Of a DNA stretch of 64,000 bases, positions 11,442 to 47,520 are shown in pieces. Source of the stretch: Orbus hercynius (GTDB lineage: Bacteria > Pseudomonadota > Gammaproteobacteria > Enterobacterales > Orbaceae). Every line of letters begins with the position of its first letter. Position 1 is the stretch's first letter. The notes beneath the pieces are model-generated. The model ran no database searches. It was not told the origin of the DNA and saw only the letters and a program-made list of their open reading frames with translations. The stretch spans positions 741,955 to 805,954 of the forward strand of contig NZ_RBWY01000001.1 in assembly GCF_003634275.1 (NCBI RefSeq), in the 5' to 3' direction. Made by a program: the position numbers and the translations under genes.

Positions 11442-12119
11442 TTAGCGTCTTTCCCGTACGATTTGGTAACGACGCGTGAGATAACCAATTGGTGCACTCC
11501 AAATATGCACTAAACGAGTAAATGGAAAAATTAAAAATATTGTCATGCCTAAAATAATATGGGCTTTATAAATATGCGATATCCCCTCTAAATGATGGCT
11601 AGCACCAAATTGGAACGTGGCAATATCTTGACTCCATTGTGATAACGACATCATGACGCTACCATCTAAGTGATGAGATGAAACCACGATGGTTACTAGC
11701 CCTAAGCACACTTGTACGACGAAAATGGCAATGACTAAAATATCTGCTTTGGTTGAGGTTGCTCGAACGCGTGGGTTGAACAAACGGCGCCAAAATAGGG
11801 CTCCGCCACCAATTAATACCATCACACCACACACCCCGCCAGCGACCATGGCTAGCATTTGTTTATGTGGTGCTGAAATGACCATTGCATACAGCCAATG
11901 CGGCGTTAATAGGCCAACAAAGTGACCTAAAAAGATACCAATGATACCAATGTGAAACAAATTAGATGCCCAGCGCATACTTTTATTACTGAGCATTTGG
12001 CTTGATTGTGCTCGCCATGTATATTGACCGTAATCATAGCGTATTAGACTACCGACTAAAAATACAACGGTGACAATATAGGGGTAAAAATCAAAAAAGA
12101 ATGAATTCATAAAACTCAT
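11442..12119 (-). CDS. narI: Respiratory nitrate reductase gamma subunit (cytochrome b) NarI
   Basis: A 225-residue membrane subunit, the same length as in E. coli. It takes electrons from quinol and passes them via two b-type haems to NarH. Five membrane segments are visible. The four haem-ligand histidines fall at the E. coli positions: His56 and His66 (HIGIIGIFLGH), His187 and His205 (HIILGMTIFLIFPFTRLVH). Its ATG overlaps the narJ stop by 4 nt (ATGA), which indicates translational coupling. Last gene of the operon. Confidence 0.97.
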   Translation of the reverse strand: MSFMNSFFFDFYPYIVTVVFLVGSLIRYDYGQYTWRAQSSQMLSNKSMRWASNLFHIGIIGIFLGHFVGLLTPHWLYAMVISAPHKQMLAMVAGGVCGVMVLIGGGALFWRRLFNPRVRATSTKADILVIAIFVVQVCLGLVTIVVSSHHLDGSVMMSLSQWSQDIATFQFGASHHLEGISHIYKAHIILGMTIFLIFPFTRLVHIWSAPIGYLTRRYQIVRERR

Positions 12120-12805
12120 AAGTGGCTCCTTCTATCTGCACCCACATTGACATAATAAGTGGCATTATTCACTTGCGGCTTATTATTACCAGTAGATGCT
12201 TGAAAACGAACTTGTTCTTCTTGCCAGATTTGATCTAGCTTTTCGTTAGTCGTTTCAGATGATTCTTGTGATACTTTTGCTTTAAGTTGATTATCGTCAA
12301 ATTGATGACCCGATAGTTGATACAGTAGATCAAATAGCGCGACAAAACGGCTGTGTTTTTTCTCTAAGCGGAACATCAGCAAGCGCAAAATCGGCGCAAT
12401 TTCAAGCAATTGAGCATGACGCTGCGGCTGTGCTAACAGCGATAAATACTCTAAAAAGATCGGTAAATAATCCGGTAATTGCTTGGTTGCAAGTTCAATA
12501 CCATGTTCGGCGTATTGATTCATCAAATCCACCATTGCCTGACCGCGTTCGCGTGAGTCACCATAGACGTGTTCAAATAGCAATAATGAGGTGGTGTAAC
12601 CAACGTCAAAGGTTTGATAATATTCAGCTTGAGCATCCATTAATGGCAAGGCAAAATAATCGCGGATAAACTGCGTGAACGATTGTTTTTGCTTCTCAGT
12701 TAGCGTGCTATCATCATCAATGAGCACGAAGCATTCATCTTGTGCTTGCCAAAGTGATTCATTGGGATAATCAAGAAGGCAAGCGCTGATTTTATAAACA
12801 CTCAT
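12116..12805 (-). CDS. narJ: Nitrate reductase molybdenum cofactor assembly chaperone NarJ
   Basis: A 229-residue cytoplasmic chaperone that holds NarG(H) until the molybdenum cofactor is inserted and the complex docks on NarI; it is not part of the final enzyme. The TorD/NarJ-fold signature is visible in SLLLFEHVYGDSRERGQAMVDL (residues about 73-94) and in DYLPIFLEYLSLL. Length is close to E. coli NarJ (236). Its ATG shares one base with the narH stop (TAATG), and its stop overlaps narI by 4 nt. Confidence 0.96.
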   Translation of the reverse strand: MSVYKISACLLDYPNESLWQAQDECFVLIDDDSTLTEKQKQSFTQFIRDYFALPLMDAQAEYYQTFDVGYTTSLLLFEHVYGDSRERGQAMVDLMNQYAEHGIELATKQLPDYLPIFLEYLSLLAQPQRHAQLLEIAPILRLLMFRLEKKHSRFVALFDLLYQLSGHQFDDNQLKAKVSQESSETTNEKLDQIWQEEQVRFQASTGNNKPQVNNATYYVNVGADRRSHL

Positions 12806-14343
12806 TAGTCTTTTCCTTTTAGTTGATCAATCACATCAATGCGCTGGGCATTAAACAAGTTGAATTTACTATCGCTGCCTTTACAGCCGTCACCAAAGCT
12901 AAAACCACAGTTACCTTGCTCTAAAAATGCTGGGTTTTTCAGTGACGCTTTTAATTCAGAATGATGAGTTGGTACCACAAAGCGATCTTCATAATTGGCG
13001 ATAGCTAAATAACGGTACATTTCCTGAATTTGCGCTTCAGTTAGCCCCACGTCTTCAAGTAGATGTGTATGTTTAACACCATCAACCGTTTCACCGCGTT
13101 TAAATGCTCGCATTGCCATCATGCGTTTTAAGGCGCGTAGCACGGGCTTTTCATCACCAGCCGTCAATAAGTTAGCCAAATATTTAACCGGAATACGTAA
13201 CTGCTCAACATCGGGTAAAATCCCTTGCTCATCGAGCGCTTGCTGGCCGATTTTTGATTGAATCGGCGAGAGCGGTGGCACATACCATACCATTGGTAAT
13301 GTTCGGTATTCAGGGTGTAATGGCAGGGCAAGTTGCCACTCAATCGCTAATTTGTATACCGGCGATTTTTGCGCGGCATCAATGACGCTTTGTTCGACGC
13401 CATCCGCTAATGCTTGTGCAATAACCGCTGGATCGTTAGGATCTAAGAAAATCGATAGCTGATTTTGGTAAAGACCTTGCGTATCTTCAGTTGATGCTGC
13501 TTCTTTAATGCGATCAGCATCGTATAAAATGACCCCTAGATAACGGATACGGCCAACACACGTTTCAGAGCAGACCGTTGGCATACCCGCTTCAATACGT
13601 GGATAGCAGAAAATACATTTTTCTGATTTACCGCTTTTCCAGTTAAAATAAATTTTCTTGTATGGGCAGCCAGACACACACATACGCCAGCCGCGGCATT
13701 TATCTTGATCAATTAAGACAATGCCGTCTTCTTCGCGTTTATAAATCGCCCCACTTGGGCAAGATGCGACGCAAGCTGGATTTAAACAGTGTTCACATAA
13801 GCGCGGCAAATAAGCTAAAAATGTGTTTTCAAATTCGCCATAAATCTGCTTTTCCATCTGTTTAAAGTTATAATCCTGGCTACGCTTACTAAATTCACCG
13901 CCCAGATCATCTTCCCAGTTCGGTCCGGCAATAATTTTATTAATGCGTAAACCGGTAATTTTGGAATAGGGCCTAGCTGTTGGTAAAGCAGTAACATTGG
14001 TTGCCGTTTGCAAGTTTTGATAATCATAATCAAATGGTTCATAGTAATCATCGATTTCAGGTAAATTCGGATTGGCAAAAATCCCCGATAACATACCGAC
14101 TTTACTACCGGCTTTTAATTCTAATTTACCTTTTTTATTCAGTGACCAACCGCCTTTCCAGCGTTCTTGATTTTCCCACTCAACTGGGAATCCAACGCCC
14201 GGTTTACTTTCAACGTTATTAAACCATGCATATTCAACGCCCGGACGATTAGTCCAAACGTTTTTACATGTTACTGAGCAGGTATGGCAACCAATGCATT
14301 TATCTAAATTAAGCACCATACCGATTTGTGCACGTATTTTCAT
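12805..14343 (-). CDS. narH: Respiratory nitrate reductase beta subunit (Fe-S) NarH
   Basis: A 512-residue electron-transfer subunit between NarI haems and NarG. Four cysteine groups are visible. CIGCHTCSVTC spans residues 16-26, as in E. coli. A central CEHCLNPACVASC follows, then CRGWRMCVSGC, where Trp replaces a cysteine as expected for the [3Fe-4S] centre. CIFC and later Cys complete the set. I place the start at 14343 (MKIRAQIGMV) because GGAGG lies 7-8 nt upstream; the upstream in-frame ATG at 14364 overlaps the end of narG and lacks a site. The gap from narG is 10 nt. Confidence 0.97.
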   Translation of the reverse strand: MKIRAQIGMVLNLDKCIGCHTCSVTCKNVWTNRPGVEYAWFNNVESKPGVGFPVEWENQERWKGGWSLNKKGKLELKAGSKVGMLSGIFANPNLPEIDDYYEPFDYDYQNLQTATNVTALPTARPYSKITGLRINKIIAGPNWEDDLGGEFSKRSQDYNFKQMEKQIYGEFENTFLAYLPRLCEHCLNPACVASCPSGAIYKREEDGIVLIDQDKCRGWRMCVSGCPYKKIYFNWKSGKSEKCIFCYPRIEAGMPTVCSETCVGRIRYLGVILYDADRIKEAASTEDTQGLYQNQLSIFLDPNDPAVIAQALADGVEQSVIDAAQKSPVYKLAIEWQLALPLHPEYRTLPMVWYVPPLSPIQSKIGQQALDEQGILPDVEQLRIPVKYLANLLTAGDEKPVLRALKRMMAMRAFKRGETVDGVKHTHLLEDVGLTEAQIQEMYRYLAIANYEDRFVVPTHHSELKASLKNPAFLEQGNCGFSFGDGCKGSDSKFNLFNAQRIDVIDQLKGKD

Positions 14344-14353
14344 TTTTTGCCTC

Positions 14354-17300
14354 CTACTTCTCATCTAACCAATCGACATTAGCCATTTTTCTTACCATGA
14401 CGAACTCATCGCGGTTAGAACCTACGGTGCCATAATAATTAAAACTATAAGATTGCTGCACGTAACCACCAATCATATGTGTTGGTTTTGGATATACTCG
14501 TGTGACTGAGTTATGTATCCCACCTCGTTGCCCGGTAATTTCGGAGCTAGGGAGATTAATCAAACGCTCTTGAGCGTGATACATCACAATCATGCCCGAT
14601 GGGATTCGTTGACTGACAATGGCTCTGGCGGTTAAAGCACCATTGCTATTAAAGGCTTCAACCCAATCGTTATCGGCAATCTTAAGTGTTTGTGCATCAA
14701 TTTCGCTTAACCAGACAATCGGTCCACCGCGAGAGAGTGTCAACATCATTAAGTTATCGCTATACGTTGAATGGATTCCCCATTTTTGGTGTGGCGTTAA
14801 AAAGTTCAACGCTAACTCAGGATTACCATTTGACTTATATTCCTGCATACACTCAATCGATTTGCTATTCACTGGTGGGCGATAGACCAATAAGCTTTCG
14901 CCAAAGTCACGCATCCATTGATGATCTTGATACAGTTGTTGTCGGCCTGAAATCGTACGCCATGGAATGAGCTCATGTACGTTAGTATAACCGGCATTAT
15001 AAGACACATGTTCATCTTCAAGGCCAGACCAAGTTGGGCTAGAGATGATTTTGCGGGGTTGTGATTGCAGATCTCTAAAGCGAATTTTTTCATCTTCTTT
15101 ATTTAATGCTAAATGAGTATGATCACGTCCGGTAACTTTACCTAGTGCTTGCCAGGCTTTAACGGCAACTTGACCATTAGTTTCTGGTGCGAGTGATAAA
15201 ATCATTTCTGCCGCATCAATTGCAGTATCAATTTTAGCCTGACCATTGTCCTTTGTGCCATTGAGTGCTTTTAAGAAGGCGACTTCATTTTCGGTGTTCC
15301 AGCTAATTCCCTTACCGCCATTACCGAGTTTTTCAAGTAGTGGACCAATCGAGGTGAAGCGGTGATAGGTTTCAGGGTAATTGCGTTCAACTTTGATGAA
15401 TTGAGGTGCGGTTTTGCCTGGAATGAGGTCACACTCTCCTTTAAGCCAATCTTTGACATCATAAGGCTGCGCTAGCTCAGCGGCAGAGTCATGCTGAATG
15501 GGTAGGGTGACAATATCCGTTTCAACGCCTAAATGGCCAGGGCACAGGGCTGAGAACTCTTTGGCAAACCCTTTATAAATCTCCCAGTCACTTTTCGCTT
15601 CCCACGCTGGATCCACTGCTGCCGAGAGCGGATGGATGAATGGGTGCATATCTGATGTATTAAGATCGTCTTTCTCATACCATGTTGCGGTTGGTAACAC
15701 GATATCAGAGAACAAACACGTGCTCGACATTCTAAAATCAAGGGTAACCACTAAATCCAATTTACCAGTTAAGGGTTTATCTTGCCACTCAAGCTCCGTT
15801 GGCTTAACTATCCCTTGTTTACCTAAATCGGTATTTTGCAGACCGTGCTCCGTACCGAGTAAATAATTGAGTAGGTATTCATGACCTTTACCTGATGAGC
15901 CGAGTAAATTAGAACGCCAAATGAAGAGCTGCCTTGGATGGCAACGATTGTCATCGGGAGACTGCGCTGCAAATTTAATCTCACCTTGTTTTAAGGCATC
16001 GACGGTATAGCTGATTGGATCTTGATTGTGTTCGGCAGCATATTTTGTAATTTTAATCGGGTTAACATTCAATTGTGGGGCAGAAGGCAACCAACCTAAA
16101 CGCTCCGCTTTAATATTAAAATCGATTAGGCTATCGCTATATTTTGAACTGTCAGCCAGCGGTGATAATAACGATTTAGCCGAAACCGTTTCGTGGCGCC
16201 ATTGGCTTGAATGATTATAAAAGAACGATGTACTGTTCATATGACGAGGTGGACGCTGCCAATCAAGCGCAAAAGCTAGCGGTAACCATCCCGTTTGTGG
16301 ACGTAGCTTTTCTTGACCAACATAGTGTGCCCAGCCACCACCAGATTGACCGACGCAACCACAAAAAATCAGCATATTGATTAAACCACGATAGTTCATG
16401 TCCATGTGGTACCAATGATTCAGCCCAGCCCCGACGATAACCATTGAGCGGCCATGAGTTTTATTGGCATTATCGGCAAACTCTCTGGCAATGGTGATGA
16501 TACGCTCTGCTGGCACGCCGGTAATTTTTTCTGCCCAAGTTGGGGTGTACGCTTTAATTTCACTGTATTTGCTTGCTGCATTATCATCATTTAAGCCACG
16601 TTCGATGCCATAGTTTGCTAGCATTAAATCGTGCACGGTTGCCACGTAAGCTTGCTGGCCATTCGCTAAGGTAATCGATTTGACCGGTAATTTGTGATAT
16701 AGCACATTATCAAGTGGTACATGTTTAAAGTATTTTTGGTTTTCGCTAGCAAAATAAGGGAAACCTACATCGACAACCTCATCATGCTGATTTAATAAGC
16801 TGAGTTGTAAACGGACTTCATTTTGATTTAAGCCTTCTTTTGCCTCTAAATTCCATTTCCCTTCTTCACCCCAGCGAAAACCTGCAGAACCTTGTGGAAC
16901 AACCAGTGATTGTGTTAGCTCATCAATGGCAACGGTTTTCCACTCAGGATTGTTGGCTTGACCGAGTTTATCAACCAGATCGTCTGCACGCAGCAATGAT
17001 CCGGCAGCAAATGTGCCATTGTCACGTTTTTCAAGCTTAACCAACATTGGAAAATCGGTATAACGACGCGCATAATTTAAAAAGTATTCAGACGGATTAT
17101 CGAGATAAAACTCTTTTAAAATAACATGCCCCATCGCTAAAGCGAGAGCGCTGTCTGTGCCTTGTTGTGGCGCAATCCACTCATCGGCAAACTTAGATAC
17201 TTCGGCATAATCAGGGCAAATAGCGACTGTTTTCGTGCCTTTATATCTGACTTCAGTAAAGAAGTGCGCATCAGGCGTTCGTGTTTGCGGAATATTTGAG

Positions 17301-18061
17301 CCCCAGGCAATAATATACGACGAATTGTACCAGTCAGCTGATTCAGGCACGTCAGTTTGTTCACCCCACGTCATCGGAGAAGCAGGGGGCAGGTCACAAT
17401 ACCAATCATAGAAAGATAAACATGCGCCGCCAATTAGTGATAAGTAACGTGCACCCGCGGCGTACGAGACCATCGACATGGCTGGAATCGGTGAGAACCC
17501 CGCAATTCTATCTGGACCAAACTCTTTAATGGTCGCAATATTTGATGCGGCAATTAATTCGTTAACCTCTTGCCATGATGCTCTGACAAAATCACCTTTA
17601 CCTCGTTTGGTTTTGTAAGATTGACCTTTGCTCGTATCACTAATGATCGATTGCCAGGCATCAACAGGATCGGCATATTGCTGCTTCGCTTCACGCCAAA
17701 GTGATAACAATTGCTTACGAATTAAAGGATATTTTACCCGATTGGCACTATAGAGGTACCATGAATAGCTCGCGCCTCGTGGGCAGCCTCGTGGTTCATG
17801 GTTCGGTAAGTCAGGACGAGTTCTTGGGTAGTCCGTTTGCTGCGTTTCCCAAGTTACCAGCCCATTTTTAACATAAATTTTCCAGCTACATGAACCGGTG
17901 CAGTTAACGCCATGGGTTGAGCGGACAATTTTGTCATGCTGCCAGCGCTGGCGATACGCATCTTCCCAATCACGGTTAACCGATTCAGTTTTTCCGTGAC
18001 CCTCAGCGAAGGTTCCGCTCGAGTGTTTAAAAAATTTAAGATGATCAATAAATTTACTCAT
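14354..18061 (-). CDS. narG: Respiratory nitrate reductase alpha (catalytic) subunit NarG
   Basis: A 1235-residue molybdoenzyme subunit that reduces nitrate to nitrite on the cytoplasmic side. The unusual [4Fe-4S] FS0 ligands His50, Cys54, Cys58 and Cys93 (THGVNCTGSC and RGCPRG) are present. So is the Asp223 molybdenum ligand in WYCDLPPASP, one residue from the E. coli numbering of the mature chain. Length is close to E. coli NarG (1247). The N-terminus is a remnant twin-arginine-type region without cleavage, as usual for NarG. It follows narK by 26 nt and is surely co-transcribed with it. Confidence 0.98.
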   Translation of the reverse strand: MSKFIDHLKFFKHSSGTFAEGHGKTESVNRDWEDAYRQRWQHDKIVRSTHGVNCTGSCSWKIYVKNGLVTWETQQTDYPRTRPDLPNHEPRGCPRGASYSWYLYSANRVKYPLIRKQLLSLWREAKQQYADPVDAWQSIISDTSKGQSYKTKRGKGDFVRASWQEVNELIAASNIATIKEFGPDRIAGFSPIPAMSMVSYAAGARYLSLIGGACLSFYDWYCDLPPASPMTWGEQTDVPESADWYNSSYIIAWGSNIPQTRTPDAHFFTEVRYKGTKTVAICPDYAEVSKFADEWIAPQQGTDSALALAMGHVILKEFYLDNPSEYFLNYARRYTDFPMLVKLEKRDNGTFAAGSLLRADDLVDKLGQANNPEWKTVAIDELTQSLVVPQGSAGFRWGEEGKWNLEAKEGLNQNEVRLQLSLLNQHDEVVDVGFPYFASENQKYFKHVPLDNVLYHKLPVKSITLANGQQAYVATVHDLMLANYGIERGLNDDNAASKYSEIKAYTPTWAEKITGVPAERIITIAREFADNANKTHGRSMVIVGAGLNHWYHMDMNYRGLINMLIFCGCVGQSGGGWAHYVGQEKLRPQTGWLPLAFALDWQRPPRHMNSTSFFYNHSSQWRHETVSAKSLLSPLADSSKYSDSLIDFNIKAERLGWLPSAPQLNVNPIKITKYAAEHNQDPISYTVDALKQGEIKFAAQSPDDNRCHPRQLFIWRSNLLGSSGKGHEYLLNYLLGTEHGLQNTDLGKQGIVKPTELEWQDKPLTGKLDLVVTLDFRMSSTCLFSDIVLPTATWYEKDDLNTSDMHPFIHPLSAAVDPAWEAKSDWEIYKGFAKEFSALCPGHLGVETDIVTLPIQHDSAAELAQPYDVKDWLKGECDLIPGKTAPQFIKVERNYPETYHRFTSIGPLLEKLGNGGKGISWNTENEVAFLKALNGTKDNGQAKIDTAIDAAEMILSLAPETNGQVAVKAWQALGKVTGRDHTHLALNKEDEKIRFRDLQSQPRKIISSPTWSGLEDEHVSYNAGYTNVHELIPWRTISGRQQLYQDHQWMRDFGESLLVYRPPVNSKSIECMQEYKSNGNPELALNFLTPHQKWGIHSTYSDNLMMLTLSRGGPIVWLSEIDAQTLKIADNDWVEAFNSNGALTARAIVSQRIPSGMIVMYHAQERLINLPSSEITGQRGGIHNSVTRVYPKPTHMIGGYVQQSYSFNYYGTVGSNRDEFVMVRKMANVDWLDEK
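15500..15507 (+). other. KOPS-like octamer pointing toward dif (left side)
   Basis: GGGTAGGG on the plus strand matches GGGNAGGG and points right, toward dif 28 kb away. It lies inside narG. One octamer alone is weak evidence. Confidence 0.3.
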
Positions 18062-18087
18062 AATCTTGCTCCCAATAACTTGGTGAC

Positions 18088-19443
18088 TTATTGCGCTTTA
18101 TAGTTAAGTTTAGTAATCAGTGCGCAGACAATATAAAAAATCAAAAATACGATTAAGGCATAGTTAGCGGTGCCCATTAGCGTGGTTGATAAGCTAAAAA
18201 GTTGTGGGATAATAAAGCCGCCCATCGCGCCAATTGCCGAGATAAATCCAAGTGCTGCTGCTGTCATGGTTACAGCATGTTTGTTCGCTGCTTCTTGATT
18301 TGCACCTGATTTAAGGCTGTCTTCGAAAATATGTTGTCTAAAAACGACAGCAATCATTTGATAAGTAGAACCACTACCAAAACCGGCTGTAAAAAACAGT
18401 AATAAAAACATCAAATAAAAACCTAAAAAGATCCCTTTTTCGCTAACAACGCCAGGTAACATGACAAATGCGCCAATGACAAAGATAATCATTAAGATAT
18501 AGTTGATTAATGTCATGCGAATGCCGTTAAATTTATCGGATAGCATGCCACCTAATGGGCGACCAATAGCGCCAACAAGTGGACCGGCAAATACGAGCAA
18601 GCTAATATCAACGTCTGGAAATTGGGTTTTACTTAATACGCCAAAGCCAGCTGAAAAACCAATAAATGATCCGAATGTTGCAAGGTACAGTAAACTTAGT
18701 GTCCACATCGTGCCATCTTTTAATACAACCGCTTGTTCTTTAAATGACGCCTTTGAGGTAGAGAGATCATTCATACCAACTAAGGCAAACACCGAGCAGA
18801 TAATCAAGAAAGGAACCCAAATAAAGGCGGCATTTTGAACCCAAATACTATTACCATTGCTTAATGTTTGCCCATCACCAATTAGCGCCGGTACAAAAAT
18901 GATTAATGCGGCAACTAGTTGGATAACACTAACACCCATATTGCCCAAACCGCCATTTAAACCCAATGCTCCGCCTTGCGCAGATTTTGGGTAGAAAAAG
19001 CTAATATTGGCCATGCTTGATGCAAAATTTGCACCGCCTAAACCACACAATAAGGCAATAATAATAAAGATGATATAAGGTGTATTAGGATCTTGCACGG
19101 CATAACCTAACCAAATACACGGTAATATTAAAATAATAGTGCTAAAGGTTGTCCAACGGCGGCCCCCAAATATTGGAATCACAAATGAGTAGGGCACACG
19201 AAATAGTGCACCTGATACGGACGGAATAGCCACTAATAGATACAGTTGTTCTTTGGTAAAATTAAAACCGATATCATTAAGATGAATCGAAATAATACTA
19301 AAGAGCATCCACACACAAAATCCGAGTAATAAACAAGGAATGGATATCCATAAATTACGGGTTGCTATTTTTCTACCCGTTTGTTCCCAAAACTGTTTAT
19401 CATCGGGTGCCCATTTTTCGATGATTTGTGCTGATTTACTCAT
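18088..19443 (-). CDS. narK: Nitrate/nitrite antiporter NarK
   Basis: A 451-residue MFS carrier of the nitrate-nitrite porter family with 12 predicted membrane segments. The family signatures are visible: GGANFASSMANISFFYP in segment 5 and, in the second half, GFGSGSTYQMIAVVFR. It imports nitrate for NarGHI and exports nitrite. The start at 19443 (MSKSAQIIEK) has AGGAG 6 nt upstream; an ATG at 19461 is less likely. First gene of narK-narGHJI. The layout matches E. coli (narK next to narGHJI) except that narXL does not lie upstream. Confidence 0.96.
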   Translation of the reverse strand: MSKSAQIIEKWAPDDKQFWEQTGRKIATRNLWISIPCLLLGFCVWMLFSIISIHLNDIGFNFTKEQLYLLVAIPSVSGALFRVPYSFVIPIFGGRRWTTFSTIILILPCIWLGYAVQDPNTPYIIFIIIALLCGLGGANFASSMANISFFYPKSAQGGALGLNGGLGNMGVSVIQLVAALIIFVPALIGDGQTLSNGNSIWVQNAAFIWVPFLIICSVFALVGMNDLSTSKASFKEQAVVLKDGTMWTLSLLYLATFGSFIGFSAGFGVLSKTQFPDVDISLLVFAGPLVGAIGRPLGGMLSDKFNGIRMTLINYILMIIFVIGAFVMLPGVVSEKGIFLGFYLMFLLLFFTAGFGSGSTYQMIAVVFRQHIFEDSLKSGANQEAANKHAVTMTAAALGFISAIGAMGGFIIPQLFSLSTTLMGTANYALIVFLIFYIVCALITKLNYKAQ

Positions 19444-19757
19444 ACTTATCTCCTGATTCACTTAATTCATATAGCTGATTATGGAATAACCCCACAATTA
19501 ATAGGCTTAGTGTAAGAAAAAAGGGGAGGAATGTAATTAATCTTGAAGGATTACTACTTAAGCGGTAGACGCAGTAAAAAACCTTTAAAATTGGAGTGTT
19601 GCGTCATTATTTGGCCCAAAAAATTTACGACTAAATAAAGCAATTAATGGCACAAAAAAACAATAATTGCTTAATAATTCGTTATTACAAAATAGAATGA
19701 ATAAAATAAAGAGAGTGTAGCGCGCTTACATGTACGCACCGTGTTAAGCGATAGTTA
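19444..19757. other. Control region upstream of narK
   Basis: About 310 gene-free bases between narK and the end of the EamA gene, both leftward. It holds the NarL/NarP-type palindrome listed separately. Four bases downstream of that, read toward narK, is TTCAA-GATT-AATTA, which matches the FNR consensus TTGAT-N4-ATCAA at only 6 of 10 positions. No clear -10/-35 pair is evident. A CGCTTA/TAAGCG inverted repeat near 19743 could end EamA transcripts. Confidence 0.5.
19552..19567 (-). promoter_or_regulatory. NarL/NarP-type 7-2-7 palindrome upstream of narK
   Basis: TACTACT-TA-AGCGGTA is an inverted pair of heptamers separated by 2 bp. Both halves fit the NarL/NarP heptamer TACYNMT (TACTACT, and TACCGCT on the other strand). 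It lies about 110-125 bp upstream of the narK start codon. The 7-2-7 geometry is the arrangement established for NarL/NarP in E. coli. The sensor-regulator genes themselves are not in this window. Confidence 0.65.
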
Positions 19758-29869: not shown

Positions 29870-31105
29870 ATGCTAGCACTGTTTATGGCACGAAAATTTA
29901 GACAAGGACGTAAGCAAAGTGGCATGTTATCACTGATTTCAGTGATATCAACTTTAAGTATCGCTATCGGTATTGCGGCGTTAATTATTGGTTTAAGTGC
30001 AATGAACGGCTTTGAAAGAGAGTTGAAAAACCGAGTGCTGTCGGTCATTCCACATGCTGAGTTTTATGCCGAGAATGGTACACTGGCCAATTGGCGCTCA
30101 GTGGAAAATCAGATTGCCCATAGCCCAAATATCATTGCATCAGCTCCCTTTATCCGTTTTTCCGGATTGGTTGAAAAAGGCACCAAATTAAAAGCGCTTC
30201 AAGTGCAGGGCGTGAATATCGCTCAGGAAGAGCAAATGAGTGTTTTACCGCGCTATGTTTTGCATGATAAGTGGCCATCATTTGCCGATAATCAACAGCA
30301 AATTATTATTGGCGCCGGTTTGGCGGATGCGTTATCGGCCAAAGAAGGCGATTGGATAACATTATTAATCCCAACTAGCGGTGATTCCGGTCAGCTTAAA
30401 CAACCCAAAAGAGTGCGCCTAATGGTGGTAGGTATCATGGACTTTAGCGGTAGTTTAGGCAATAGCGTTGCTTTTATTCCGTTAGCTGATGCGCAACAAT
30501 ACCTCAATATAGGTGACAACGTCACGGGCATAAAGGTCAATGTTAATAATATTTACCGTGCTAATTATATCGCGCAAAATACCGCGATGAATATTATAAC
30601 ACCGTTATCTGTGTCGAGTTGGGAAGTTAACTATGGCTATATGTACCATGATATTCAAATGATTCGGCAGATTATGTATTTAGCGATGGTTGTTGTGATG
30701 GGCGTTGCCTGCTTTAGTATTGTATCAACTCTAGTTATTGCCGTTAAAGATAAACAACGTGATATTGCGATACTCAAAACATTAGGCGCCACTAATGAAT
30801 TGATTCGTAAAATATTCATTTTTTACGGTTTGATTTCCGGTTTGGTGGGAAGTGTGATTGGTGCTATCCTTGGGATTATCATTTCATGGCAGCTTTCAAA
30901 TATCATACTGGTTATTCAATCGTTAATTGGACGCCAGTTATTAAATAGTCATATCTACTTTATCGACTTTCTTCCTTCTGAAATTCATATCGTCGATATT
31001 GTGATTGTATTTTGTACAGCGATGTTATTAACATTAATAGCGAGCTATTATCCAGCTCGCCGAGCGTGTAAAGTCGATCCCGTTAAAATTCTCAACGGTT
31101 TTTAA
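29870..31105 (+). CDS. lolE: Lipoprotein-releasing ABC transporter permease LolE
   Basis: A 411-residue permease partner of LolC. The N-terminal block SGMLSLISVISTLSIAIGIAA...GLSAMNGFERELKNR is typical of LolE. It ends in SYYPARRACKVDPVKILNGF. I prefer the ATG at 29870 to that at 29852 because it aligns with homologues and a GAGAG lies upstream. An exact matS sequence (30513-30525) lies inside the gene and encodes Asp-Asn-Val-Thr. Confidence 0.96.
   Translation: MLALFMARKFRQGRKQSGMLSLISVISTLSIAIGIAALIIGLSAMNGFERELKNRVLSVIPHAEFYAENGTLANWRSVENQIAHSPNIIASAPFIRFSGLVEKGTKLKALQVQGVNIAQEEQMSVLPRYVLHDKWPSFADNQQQIIIGAGLADALSAKEGDWITLLIPTSGDSGQLKQPKRVRLMVVGIMDFSGSLGNSVAFIPLADAQQYLNIGDNVTGIKVNVNNIYRANYIAQNTAMNIITPLSVSSWEVNYGYMYHDIQMIRQIMYLAMVVVMGVACFSIVSTLVIAVKDKQRDIAILKTLGATNELIRKIFIFYGLISGLVGSVIGAILGIIISWQLSNIILVIQSLIGRQLLNSHIYFIDFLPSEIHIVDIVIVFCTAMLLTLIASYYPARRACKVDPVKILNGF
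30513..30525. other. matS site 1 (predicted MatP binding site) within lolE
   Basis: GTGACAACGTCAC is an exact match to the E. coli matS consensus GTGAC-RNY-GTCAC. MatP organises the Ter macrodomain in E. coli. Site function here is inferred from the exact match, the clustering with four more sites and the nearby dif site. Confidence 0.75.
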
Positions 31106-41151: not shown

Positions 41152-41532
41152 TTTAATTCATTAATCCTAACGATATATTGTACCGCTTTAAATGCCGATA
41201 TACCAACTAGAACGGATATGACTAATAGTATCTATGCCACAGGTGAATATAGCACCATTTCTGATTACGCTAAAAATAATGGTTATAGCAGGGCGATTGG
41301 CGGTGGTGTTACGGCGGAATGGGGAAAAATATTCTATTACGCACCAGGTGATGGTAATCGTAAAGATATGATGGCTAATTTACCGGCCAGTGCCATTAAG
41401 AAAATTTTTAATTATAGTTACTATTACACAAGCCAAGTATCAACCAATTCATCAGGCTATCACTATGATGTCGGTGTTGTAGAAGGTAATGTATCGATCA
41501 ATTCTGGTGCTTATACTATATGTATGAAATAG
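41152..41532 (+). pseudogene. C-terminal remnant of an adhesin-like gene, paralogue of the gene at 52.3-53.9 kb
   Basis: A 104-codon open frame runs from an ATG at 41218 to a stop at 41530. Its product aligns by eye with the C-terminus of the large exported protein at 52341-53855: SRAIGGGVTAEWG against QRTIGGGLFAEWG, then a Tyr-rich stretch, a GNVSIN/GSVNYT element and a Cys close to the end. The similarity extends upstream of the ATG, through codons that read YCTALNADIP (compare YCTDLGGGGKY), back to an in-frame stop at 41149. So the ATG is internal to a formerly longer gene. I call it a truncated pseudogene. A short secreted protein is unlikely because there is no signal peptide or ribosome binding site. 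Confidence 0.7.
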
Positions 41533-42707: not shown

Positions 42708-42720
42708 GTGACAATGTCAC
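42708..42720. other. matS site 3 at the fnr stop codon
   Basis: GTGACAATGTCAC, an exact matS match in the short gap between fnr and ydgH. Its last base is also part of the fnr stop codon (42720-42722). It shares an extended context, TTA(G/A)TTGTGAC, with site 4. Confidence 0.82.
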
Positions 42721-43439
42721 TAAATTTTTTCTGCAGCTAACTGAAATAACGCAGAAAGATCCTTAATACAAATATATTTCCCTCTAACACTCAAAATCCC
42801 TAACTCTTGGGTACGAGTTAGGATTCGACTAACCGTTTCGATCGTTAATCCTAAATAGTTAGCAATATCAGCACGACACATTGACAATTTAATGCTCAAC
42901 GAGGTATGGCCTCGCTTAGCATATTGGGTATAAAGCCAGCATATAAATGCAGCGAGCTTTTCTTCGGCATTTTTCTGAGAATAAGCTAAAATCATTTTTT
43001 GGTAATTTAGAATATTTTGACTCATTAGATTGAAAATAGTGTCACGAACTTGCGTACTTTTGGTGACTAAAGCCATCAATTCATCATATTTAAGTTCACA
43101 GGCTAGGGTAGTTGTTAATGCTTTGATGGTATTATTATATTTATGGGTTGTAATACTGTCTAACCCGATAATGTCGCCTGGAAGGTAAAAACCATTAATT
43201 TGCTCAGTACCATTGATTATAACATACGTTTTTAATGCACCTGAGTGAATAATATAAAAACGTTGAAACTCATCGCCTTCAGTCACAAGAATTTCATTTT
43301 TAGCAAAACTGCGTTTTCGATTCAAAACTGACTCAAGCGTATTATTTAAAGCCATCGGAATACATATAGAGCCAATGCTACATAATTCACATGGCACCGA
43401 GTAACTTTTTGAACGAAGAGGCTTGGAAATATCTTGCAT
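42720..43439 (-). CDS. fnr: Oxygen-sensing transcription regulator FNR
   Basis: A 239-residue CRP/FNR-family regulator. The [4Fe-4S] ligands are Cys17, Cys20 and Cys26 (CELCSIGSIC) and probably Cys114 (TTLACEL), as in E. coli Fnr. A cyclic-nucleotide-like beta roll (about 45-130) and dimerisation helix follow. The DNA-reading helix ANYLGLTIETVSRIL (about 193-207) has Glu201, Ser204 and Arg205 in the ETVSR motif that recognises TTGAT half-sites. It senses anaerobiosis; narK-narGHJI at 11-19 kb is an expected target. Its stop codon overlaps matS site 3. Confidence 0.95.
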   Translation of the reverse strand: MQDISKPLRSKSYSVPCELCSIGSICIPMALNNTLESVLNRKRSFAKNEILVTEGDEFQRFYIIHSGALKTYVIINGTEQINGFYLPGDIIGLDSITTHKYNNTIKALTTTLACELKYDELMALVTKSTQVRDTIFNLMSQNILNYQKMILAYSQKNAEEKLAAFICWLYTQYAKRGHTSLSIKLSMCRADIANYLGLTIETVSRILTRTQELGILSVRGKYICIKDLSALFQLAAEKI

Positions 43440-43691: not shown

Positions 43692-43719
43692 ATTTAACAT
43701 AATATACATTATGCGAACT
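43692..43719 (-). other. Chromosome dimer resolution site dif
   Basis: Read on the minus strand, the XerC arm is AGTTCGCATAA, the centre TGTATA and the XerD arm TTATGTTAAAT. The E. coli dif site, as I know it, differs only at positions 1 and 4 of the XerC arm, so 26 of 28 bases agree. XerC and XerD recombine at dif under FtsK control to resolve chromosome dimers. Location in a large intergenic region, ringed by matS sites, fits a true dif rather than a chance match. Confidence 0.92.
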
Positions 43720-43874
43720 TAAATGTATTTTAAAGGAGGTGACCAAGTACTCCAAGTTAATCCCGTTCATCAATCGCCAGATCACTAATTCCAATACCAT
43801 TTCAAGCTCTTATATTTACTAAAACTAAAATAAGTTAATTATTAATTAGTTTAAAAACCCATTTAAAATCAATA

Positions 43875-43902
43875 CGTTAAAATAATGTATATTATGTTAA
43901 AA
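43875..43902 (+). other. Second dif-like site, inverted relative to dif
   Basis: Left arm CGTTAAAATAA, centre TGTATA, right arm TTATGTTAAAA. Centre and XerD arm are essentially perfect (16 of 17), and the XerC arm matches the dif of this window at 7 of 11, so 23 of 28 overall. It is oriented opposite to dif, with 155 bp between them. It may be a decayed copy or an attachment site used by a Xer-dependent element; activity is unknown. Confidence 0.6.
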
Positions 43903-44429: not shown

Positions 44430-44458
44430 TCACAATTAAGACATTATCTTAATTGTGA
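44430..44458. repeat. 12-bp inverted repeat overlapping matS site 4
   Basis: TCACAATTAAGA (44430-44441) pairs perfectly with TCTTAATTGTGA (44447-44458) around CATTA. The right arm supplies the first four bases of the adjoining matS site. There is no T-run next to it. Confidence 0.7.
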
Positions 44459-44467
44459 CAATGTCAC
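44455..44467. other. matS site 4 in the dif intergenic region
   Basis: GTGACAATGTCAC, an exact matS match and identical to site 3. It is 735 bp from dif, on the opposite side from site 3. Confidence 0.85.
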
Positions 44468-44652: not shown

Positions 44653-47520
44653 TTACAGATTTTCAATTGCCGCGTACTGTTCAAGTAATTTGACTTTATC
44701 ATCTGCGTAGGCTTGCCGTTTTTCTTGTTCCTTGGCAACAACGGCCGGTGGTGCTTTATCAACAAAACTCGCATTGGATAATTTACTGTCAATACGGCCA
44801 ATCTCATTGTCCATCCGCTCAATCTCTTTACTTAAGCGAGCAAGCTCGTCTTGTTTATTAATTAGTCCGGCCATTGGAATAAGGAGTTCAGCACCTTCAA
44901 CCAGTTTGGTCACTGACATCGGCCCTTTATCATTGCCTTCTAAAATAACAATTTCAGATAATCGCGCTAATGACTCAATAAATGTGACATTGTCACTGAT
45001 TCGTCGATGGCTCGCCGGTGATGCATCACGGATAATTAGCTGTAATGGTTTGCTTGGGGCAATGTTCATTTCAGCACGGATATTACGAATCGCAATAACC
45101 ACTTGTTTAATCCAGTTAAGATCATTTTGCGCTTGTTCGTCATCCCATTTTTTATCGTAGCTAGGCATTTTTTGTAACATAATAGTATCAGCAGTAATCC
45201 CCATAATTCCTTTAACATTTTGCCAAATTGCTTCGGTAATAAACGGAATAATTGGATGAGCCAAACGTAATAATGATTCAAGTACCGAAACTAATGTATG
45301 ACGAGCCGCTCGTTGCTGGCTGGCACTACCATTGCTAATGATTGATTTGGTTAATTCCAAATACCAGTCACAAAATTGGTTCCAAGTGAATTCATATAAA
45401 ATGCCTGCCGCCATATCAAAACGATAAGTGGAAAATGCGTCTTCATAAGCTTTAATCGTTTGATTAAATTCCGCTAATATCCATTTATCTGCTAAGGAAT
45501 AATCAAGTTCACCGCCATTAAAACCACAATCATGATCTTCTGTGTTCATTAGAACGTAACGGCTGGCATTCCAAAGTTTATTACAGAAGTTACGGTACCC
45601 TTCTAAGCGTTTCAAATCCCAATTAATATCACGCCCTGTTGAAGCAAGTGCGGCTAACGTAAAGCGTAATGCGTCCGTACCATGTGGTTCAATGCCATTA
45701 GGGAACTGCTTTTCAGTACGTTTACCAATTTTTTCCGCTAATTGCGGCTGCATCATATTCCCTGTACGTTTTTCTAATAAATCAGCTAAAGAAATACCGT
45801 CAATCATATCGAGCGGATCAATAACGTTACCTTTAGACTTGGACATTTTCTGCCCTTCTTCATCTCGAATCAGACCTGTTACATAAACCGTTTTAAATGG
45901 CACTTGTGGTTTACCATTTTCATCTTTGATAAAGTGCATGGTTAACATAATCATGCGGGCAACCCAGAAGAAAATAATATCAAACCCGGTAACGAGCACA
46001 TTCGTCGGGTGGAATGTCCGTAAATCATCGGTATTGTCAGGCCAACCTAAGGTTGAAAATGTCCATAATCCTGAAGAGAACCATGTATCTAATACGTCAT
46101 CATCTTGGCTTAGTTTAATTGAGTCGGCTAATTGGTACTCTTTTCTAACTTCATCTTCATTACGTCCAACATAAACATTACCTTGCTCATCATACCAAGC
46201 CGGAATACGATGTCCCCACCATAATTGACGAGAAATACACCAATCTTGAATATCATTCATCCAAGAAAAATACATGTTTTCGTATTGTTTAGGCACAAAT
46301 TGGATTTCACCATTTTTAACCGCATCGATTGCAACTTCAGCTAATGGCTTGGTTCTGACATACCACTGATCAGTTAGCATTGGTTCAATCACCACGCCAC
46401 CACGATCGCCATAAGGGATGGTTAAATCATGTGGTTCTATTTTGTCTAAAATGCCTAATGCTTCACACGCAGCAACAATCGCTTTACGAGCTGCAAATCG
46501 TTCTAGTTTTTGGTATTCAAGTGGTAAATCGCCACTGTACACATCGGTCAATTCACCGTTGGTATCGAAGACTTCAGCTTGCTGGCGAATATCACCATCA
46601 AAGGTGAAAATATTGATCATTGGTAACTGATGACGTTTACCGACTTCATAGTCATTAAAGTCATGAGCTGGTGTGATTTTCACACAACCCGTCCCTTTAG
46701 TCATATCGGCATGTTCATCGCCAACAATTAAGATGCGTCGGTTAACGAATGGTAACATCACATATTGACCGATTAAATCTTTATAACGCGGATCTTCAGG
46801 ATTAACTGCAACGCCGGTATCACCTAACAAAGTCTCCGGGCGAGTGGTTGCAACAACTAAGTAATCTTTGCCTTCTGCCGTTTTTACACCATCGGCTAGT
46901 GGATAACGAATATGCCACATTGATCCTTTGCTTTCACGGTTCTCAACTTCAAGATCAGAGATCGCTGTACGTAATTTTGGATCCCAGTTAACTAATCGTT
47001 TACCACGGTAGATCAAGTTTTCTTTGTAGAGTCGAACAAAGACTTCTTTAACAGCATTAGATAATCCATCATCCATCGTAAAGCGTTCACGCTCCCAATC
47101 AACTGAATCCCCTAAACGTCGCATTTGTTTGGTAATACTGCCACCAGATTCTGCTTTCCATTGCCAAATTTTATCGATAAATGCATCTCGGCCATAGTCA
47201 TGCCGAGTTTTGTTTTCTTCAGCGGCTATTTTACGCTCAACAACCATTTGGGTTGCAATACCAGCATGGTCTGTCCCTGATTGCCATAACGTATTGTGAC
47301 CTTGCATACGATGGTAACGGATTAGCGCATCCATAATAGTTTGTTGGAAAGCATGCCCCATATGCAAACTACCCGTGACGTTCGGTGGTGGAATGGCAAT
47401 ACAGTAACTTGGTGCTAATTGATTACCATTAGGCTTAAAGTAGCCACTGTCTTCCCAATGCGTATAAATCGGTTGTTCAATTTCTTGCGGATTATAGGTT
47501 TTATCTAATGTGATTTTCAT
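44653..47520 (-). CDS. valS: Valyl-tRNA synthetase ValS
   Basis: A 955-residue class I synthetase charging tRNA-Val, close to the E. coli length (951). The HIGH-type motif is [14 protein letters not shown] (about 46-59). The CP1 editing domain includes [17 protein letters not shown]. The KMSKS loop is [10 protein letters not shown] (about 555-565). The C-terminal coiled-coil arm is [24 protein letters not shown]. It is the last gene of a leftward pepA-holC-valS order that is conserved in enterobacteria. It contains a matS site. Confidence 0.98.
44984..44996. other. matS site 5 (predicted MatP binding site) within valS
   Basis: GTGACATTGTCAC, an exact matS match. On the coding (minus) strand it is GAC-AAT-GTC-AC in the phase encoding Asp-Asn-Val-Thr, the same phase as the sites in lolE and hrpA. 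Confidence 0.78.

Follow-up and report, generated by a model that had tools for sequence, protein, structure and literature searches.

Inoviruses reported to integrate at dif include Ypfphi, CUS-1 and UPphi alongside CTXphi. CTXphi has two inverted attachment sites, attP1 with a 12-bp core and attP2 with a core of 5-7 bp (PMC4246890). Inversely oriented Xer sites are also found in dif modules, in which the main dif was considered a non-participant by a 2026 paper (PMC12907356), and dimer resolution has been argued to become more complicated where two dif sites oppose each other (PMC5345009). The window, which is the whole stretch of 64,000 nucleotides from Orbus hercynius analyzed here, contains a canonical dif and a second, inverted dif-like site in its immediate vicinity, designated alt (Table 1). 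The reading considered probable is that the locus comprises a working dif and an inverted partner that descends from filamentous phages integrating at dif or from Rep-only satellites, with XerCD probably flipping the segment between them.

Table 1. Features of the dif locus, in window coordinates
Feature	Position	Strand	Remarks
matS consensus GTGACRNYGTCAC	42708-42720		1 kb from dif
FNR/CRP-type regulator gene (fnr)	42720-43439	minus	conserved dif neighbor across family
dif, canonical site AGTTCGCATAATGTATATTATGTTAAAT	43692-43719	minus	26/28 vs E. coli dif; sole full match in genome
dif XerD arm TTATGTTAAAT	43692-43702	minus-strand reading	
dif core TGTATA	43703-43708	minus-strand reading	
dif XerC arm AGTTCGCATAA	43709-43719	minus-strand reading	
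Spacer between XerC arms	43720-43874		155 bp, no gene; ends resemble those of G038 and G040
IHF-consensus motif AATCAATACGTTA (WATCAANNNNTTR)	43867-43879	plus	overlaps alt XerC arm
alt, second inverted dif-like site CGTTAAAATAATGTATATTATGTTAAAA	43875-43902	plus	orthologous sites in 33/38 assessable Orbaceae genomes
alt XerC arm CGTTAAAATAA	43875-43885	plus	
alt core TGTATA	43886-43891	plus	
alt XerD arm TTATGTTAAAA	43892-43902	plus	
matS consensus	44455-44467		0.7 kb from dif
valS	44653-47520	minus	flanks pair only in the window's genus and G002
matS consensus	44984-44996		1.3 kb from dif

The two mismatches between the window dif and E. coli dif are both located within the XerC arm. None of 100 dinucleotide shuffles reached three or fewer mismatches to E. 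coli dif, and the draft genome of the strain (2.36 Mb in 13 contigs) contains a single match at this threshold, at the position given in Table 1. The 28-bp site is divided into an XerC arm of 11 bp, a core of 6 bp, and an XerD arm of 11 bp, in agreement with the gammaproteobacterial consensus. The genome encodes XerD (a match over the cut-off) and, likewise, the FtsK gamma domain; a second Xer-like gene at C1:983053 is presumed to encode XerC. GC skew, computed over 800 kb of contig C1 around dif, is positive until about 735 kb; beyond 785 kb it is negative. This is the one sign change in the interval, and the cumulative maximum lies 34 kb from dif. KOPS-like GNGNAGGG octamers number 39 forward and 6 reverse before dif and 10 forward and 28 reverse after it, a bias for which GC skew alone accounts in part. 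The genome contains ten consensus copies of GTGACRNYGTCAC, which we take to be matS, the MatP site in E. coli, and all ten lie within -91/+133 kb of dif (C1:695-919 kb). Five of these are inside the window, with three located within 1.3 kb of dif (Table 1) and the others at 30513 and 39721. The confinement of the ten sites to about 220 kb around dif suggests a MatP/matS Ter domain in Orbaceae. Given the single best match, the GC skew, the matS cluster, the presence of FtsK-gamma and XerD, and the fnr neighbor retained across the family, this site is almost certainly the dif of the chromosome, where XerC and XerD would act with FtsK to resolve chromosome dimers. An earlier note, prepared from the sequence of the window alone, had described a minus-strand 28-mer sharing 26 of 28 bases with E. 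coli dif, and its position, strand, and identity were all confirmed. The single best match in the draft genome bears out the expectation that no better dif exists elsewhere, the sign change around dif matches the predicted GC-skew switch, and the assignment of the window to the replication terminus is backed by both the skew and the clustering of matS.

The same note had placed dif in a gene-free gap between fnr and valS. The gap does extend over 1.2 kb with no ORF of at least 80 aa, but the second, inverted dif-like site had been overlooked; the chromosomal dif is well supported, and the picture of one dif is incomplete given an inverted partner 155 bp away. An Rfam search returned a tRNA as its sole match. 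Elsewhere in the window, a 104-aa ORF with no Pfam match is located between hrpA and a YdgH/BhsA-like gene (41218-41532, plus strand), and positions 11442-19461 contain a nitrate reductase cluster (alpha, beta, delta, and gamma subunits and an MFS transporter) with a G+C content of 0.42-0.45, above that of its surroundings. A Wadjet cluster considered for 11.4-19.5 kb was rejected, as this region is the nitrate reductase operon.

The alt core is identical to that of dif and the XerD arms of the two sites differ by one base. A 19-mer, TAATGTATATTATGTTAAA, containing the core plus the XerD half, is common to both sites in inverted orientation and falls just inside 43875-43902; from composition, about 6e-7 exact copies would be expected in the rest of the gap. 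Allowing up to two mismatches, the half-site occurs at only two places in the genome, dif and alt. The XerC arms of the pair face inward and the XerD arms outward across the spacer, and the inverted repeat measures 29 nt at 86% identity. The alt XerC arm differs from that of dif at most outer positions, so that XerC binding at this divergent arm is only putative. At the nucleotide level, comparison of the window spacer with phages gave no match beyond the dif site itself, and no phage gene was found in it; the spacer is presumed to be a phage relic rather than a prophage.

The distribution of the pair was assessed in 44 Orbaceae genomes, of which 38 were assessable and six were not. A divergent pair is present beside fnr in 33 of the 38; both sites are assembled in 30 of these, and in G013, G021, and G023 the halves are on contig ends. 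The remaining five (G029, G030, G039, G042, and G043) contain one site only. Every pair is divergent, with the XerD arms outside, and is always adjacent to the same fnr gene, with spacers that range from 137 bp to 2.4 kb. In 26 genomes, the alt core and XerD arm are near-invariant, while the XerC arms are unlike and the intervening spacer is mostly unalignable. Directly outside the alt XerD arm, a conserved ATTATTRCGAACT was seen in G006, G007, G010, G011, G016-G018, G020, G027, G028, G033, G034, and G037. It resembles an XerC arm in inverted orientation that is longer by one base, and may correspond to the second half of the original dif or of attP1. About 360 other Enterobacterales genomes, where one dif is the rule, yielded no close inverted dif pair; apparent plus/minus pairs in outgroups G051, G065, G115, and G307 (two matches each) proved not to be close together and inverted. 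Among about 85,000 species genomes, a search for inverted pairs spaced like that of the window gave 13 matches, five of them in Gilliamella. Four of the non-Gilliamella matches were inspected: one resembles a plasmid-type pdif pair, from Acinetobacter and with unlike cores, and the rest resemble chance occurrences. In Acinetobacter celticus (L109, 4566-4757), an inverted Xer pair with different cores resembles a small pdif module. A dif module on the chromosome, like the pdif modules of Acinetobacter in which cargo located between inversely oriented Xer sites is moved by XerCD, would share the D/C...C/D geometry of described modules (PMC12907356). This explanation is given almost no credence: the window spacer carries no cargo gene, the cores are identical here and different in the inspected Acinetobacter pair, and no mobility was seen at a locus fixed next to fnr.

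Several observations bear on the proposal that the sites of a phage-derived pair recombine. The core hexamers of the two sites are identical in all 30 assembled pairs. This extends to altered cores: G025 has TCTATA on both sites, so that the pair shares a mutation, and G021 has TATATA on both contig-end half-sites. The orientation of the spacer has also changed between species, with the end facing fnr switching at least six times on a tree of HrpA and Fnr. The sister species G014 and G025 have spacers that are 92% identical and in opposite orientation. In G005, two contigs differ over one flank, which the first attaches to the dif end of the spacer and the second to the alt end; these double junctions could be an assembly chimera formed via about 34 shared bases. 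XerCD probably flips the segment between the sites, and its action is proposed to explain why the cores stay identical and why either end of the segment may face fnr. A change of orientation via RecA, acting on the short inverted repeats in place of XerCD, is possible. According to another explanation, the locus is a normal single dif, with the inverted half-site persisting as a phage relic in decay and inactive today. In favor of this are the gene-free window spacer, the divergent alt XerC arm, and the absence of alt from five relatives. An alt core and XerD arm that stay near-invariant beside a mostly unalignable spacer, cores that change together, and a spacer orientation that goes on changing speak against it, and the explanation is considered unlikely.

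Exact inverted repeats of 13-400+ bp are found in the outer flanks of about half the genomes. In L055, L061, L067, L053, and L087 (some Gilliamella and G002), the inverted repeats outside the XerD arms are exact or nearly so and measure 55 to 400+ bp. The outer repeats vary from species to species, so the flanks appear to be kept homogenized by some process, and they point to gene conversion beyond simple Xer exchange. Use of these repeats as proof of inversion in G004, G008, and G012 was abandoned; repeats exceeding the word length of an assembler would interrupt contigs in any case. They are also relevant to an origin without phages, by inverted duplication of the host terminus in the course of fork or break repair, similar to L. 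delbrueckii bulgaricus. The sites plus flanks do form inverted repeats in G002, G003, G015, and G032, and G002, G004, G012, and G032 have outer repeats of at least 285-400 bp. However, the outer flanks of the window have only 1 bp in common, its XerC arms differ, and phage rep and attP DNA is found in the spacers of relatives, making such a duplication very improbable.

The phage remnants are found in the longer Orbaceae spacers and derive from an Ff/IKe-like replication protein (PF05144, PF05155, and PHROG replication proteins). PF05155 was detected in 8 of the 44 Orbaceae genomes, at dif every time, and no Zot was found in any of the 44. The spacer Rep is closest to proteins of Dulem virus 52/57 and Inovirus D_HF5_61, with which it shares about 50% identity; searches of viral contigs with the Rep protein and with the inverted-pair pattern gave no match. 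The three nearest named phages (L118-L120) contain, in order, a C arm, 12-bp core, D arm, hairpin loop, D arm, 7-bp core, and C arm. A comparable CTX-type double site, C-7 bp-D, hairpin loop, D-11 bp-C, is retained in the spacer of the Gilliamella genome G026, where it reads AGATCGCATAA-TCTGCCG-TTATGCTAAAT, GC-rich hairpin, ATTAAACATAA-CGGCATTAACA-TTATGCGAACC and precedes 136 bp that are identical to the G014 spacer. The CTXphi arrangement of one core of about 12 bp and one of 5-7 bp is present in G026 and the three phages; both cores of the window are 6 bp. A basic ORF of about 98 aa with a weak match to phrog_12793 was noted in the spacers of G026 (L081), G006, G028, and G037; it directly adjoins the attP-like double site in G026 and is possibly a phage or satellite gene. 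At the start of G022 contig C34 (L156), an attP2-like AGATCGCATAATATGACGTTAATTTAAC is located just upstream of fnr; searching this draft genome did not recover dif itself. Collectively, the remnants show filamentous phage or satellite capture at the terminus that appears recurrent in bee-gut symbionts.

From the published CTXphi scheme, the prophage order is inferred to be dif (D-C), body, attP2 (C-D), loop, attP1 (D-C). In this order, dif and attP2 would be inverted with their XerC arms inside, which is the observed geometry. The pair of dif and alt would then be the footprint of phages or Rep-only satellites that integrated in the manner of CTXphi, with the phage body reduced to 0.14-2.4 kb in most relatives and to the gene-free 155 bp in the window genome. 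The far site now bears the core and XerD arm of dif, and this would allow XerCD to synapse the inverted sites and flip the segment. Because the 155-bp spacer has no gene, the phage origin is extrapolated to the window genome from relatives, among them G038, which has spacer ends like those of the window and retains an inovirus rep remnant. The five relatives with a single site count against this reading. Furthermore, the second site of an intact CTX-type attP combines a 7-bp core with a poorer XerD arm, unlike the perfect core and XerD arm of alt.

The alt end of the spacer is further distinguished by an IHF-consensus motif. WATCAANNNNTTR begins 8 or 14 bp ahead of the XerC arm of alt in 18 of 26 genomes (two genera; related genomes, not 18 independent events). 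Of 2260 background windows, 17 contain it, and at the dif end it is present in 0 of the 26 genomes. Either phage regulatory DNA has been preserved or the alt end is under selection. Because the motif abuts alt in so many genomes, retention of the pair may be functional. One functional explanation is a domesticated bipartite dif, in which the outward sites offer their XerD side first to FtsK from either chromosome arm, with IHF bending the DNA between them. A single geometry in 33 of 38 genomes, the IHF motif beside alt, and the near-invariant XerD arms are in keeping with this. It is nevertheless judged quite improbable, since five genomes manage with one site, recombination between unlike sites on sister chromosomes would invert rather than resolve (an argument made in PMC5345009), and the motif could be phage DNA. 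A related idea, that a phage attachment structure in Orbaceae has been turned into a two-site dif with XerD arms outward for FtsK from both chromosome arms, an IHF-bent loop that draws the sites together, and flipping as a by-product, is regarded as distinctly unlikely. If true, a two-site dif would be a naturally occurring departure from the rule that a chromosome carries one oriented dif.

In the literature searched (subscription papers were outside its scope), no paper paired Gilliamella with "dif site" or Orbaceae with "filamentous phage", and none described recurrent phage or satellite capture at the Orbaceae terminus. A family in which most members have an opposed pair at the main dif provides a natural test of the ideas in PMC5345009 and PMC12907356, and of FtsK direction at dif. 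The window shares with E. coli dif the 11-6-11 layout, the TGTATA core, the XerD arm, the terminus position, nearby matS, and the encoded FtsK-gamma and XerD; E. coli has one dif, whereas the window has a second, inverted site 155 bp away. The L. delbrueckii ssp. bulgaricus terminal repeat also places two opposed dif sites at the terminus (PMC5345009). Its arms are tens of kilobases long and confined to one subspecies, whereas the Orbaceae sites are 28 bp, close together, family-wide, and separated by phage remnants; in place of kilobase-scale inverted arms containing dif, the window has the 29-nt repeat. Acinetobacter pdif modules likewise consist of a segment flanked by inversely oriented Xer sites, but the Orbaceae pair includes the main dif. 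Such modules carry genes between their sites and are mobile between replicons; the window locus has no cargo gene and stays beside fnr. TLCphi-like satellites of Vibrio cholerae resemble the Orbaceae elements in bearing Rep, lacking morphogenesis genes, and residing at dif (PMC4246890), but the Xer sites on either side of the Orbaceae element are inverted and have identical cores. The features shared with CTXphi-type inoviruses are an inverted Xer pair, the combination of extended and 7-bp cores (in G026 and the nearest named phages), and an inovirus Rep at dif. The differences are that the Orbaceae alt has a perfect 6-bp core and XerD arm and that the bodies are Rep-only without Zot; inovirus replication and structural genes are lacking in the window, and eight relatives have rep remnants only. 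On this reading, the window pair would be a variant of the remnants left by dif-targeting filamentous phages, one that works like an Xer-invertible segment.
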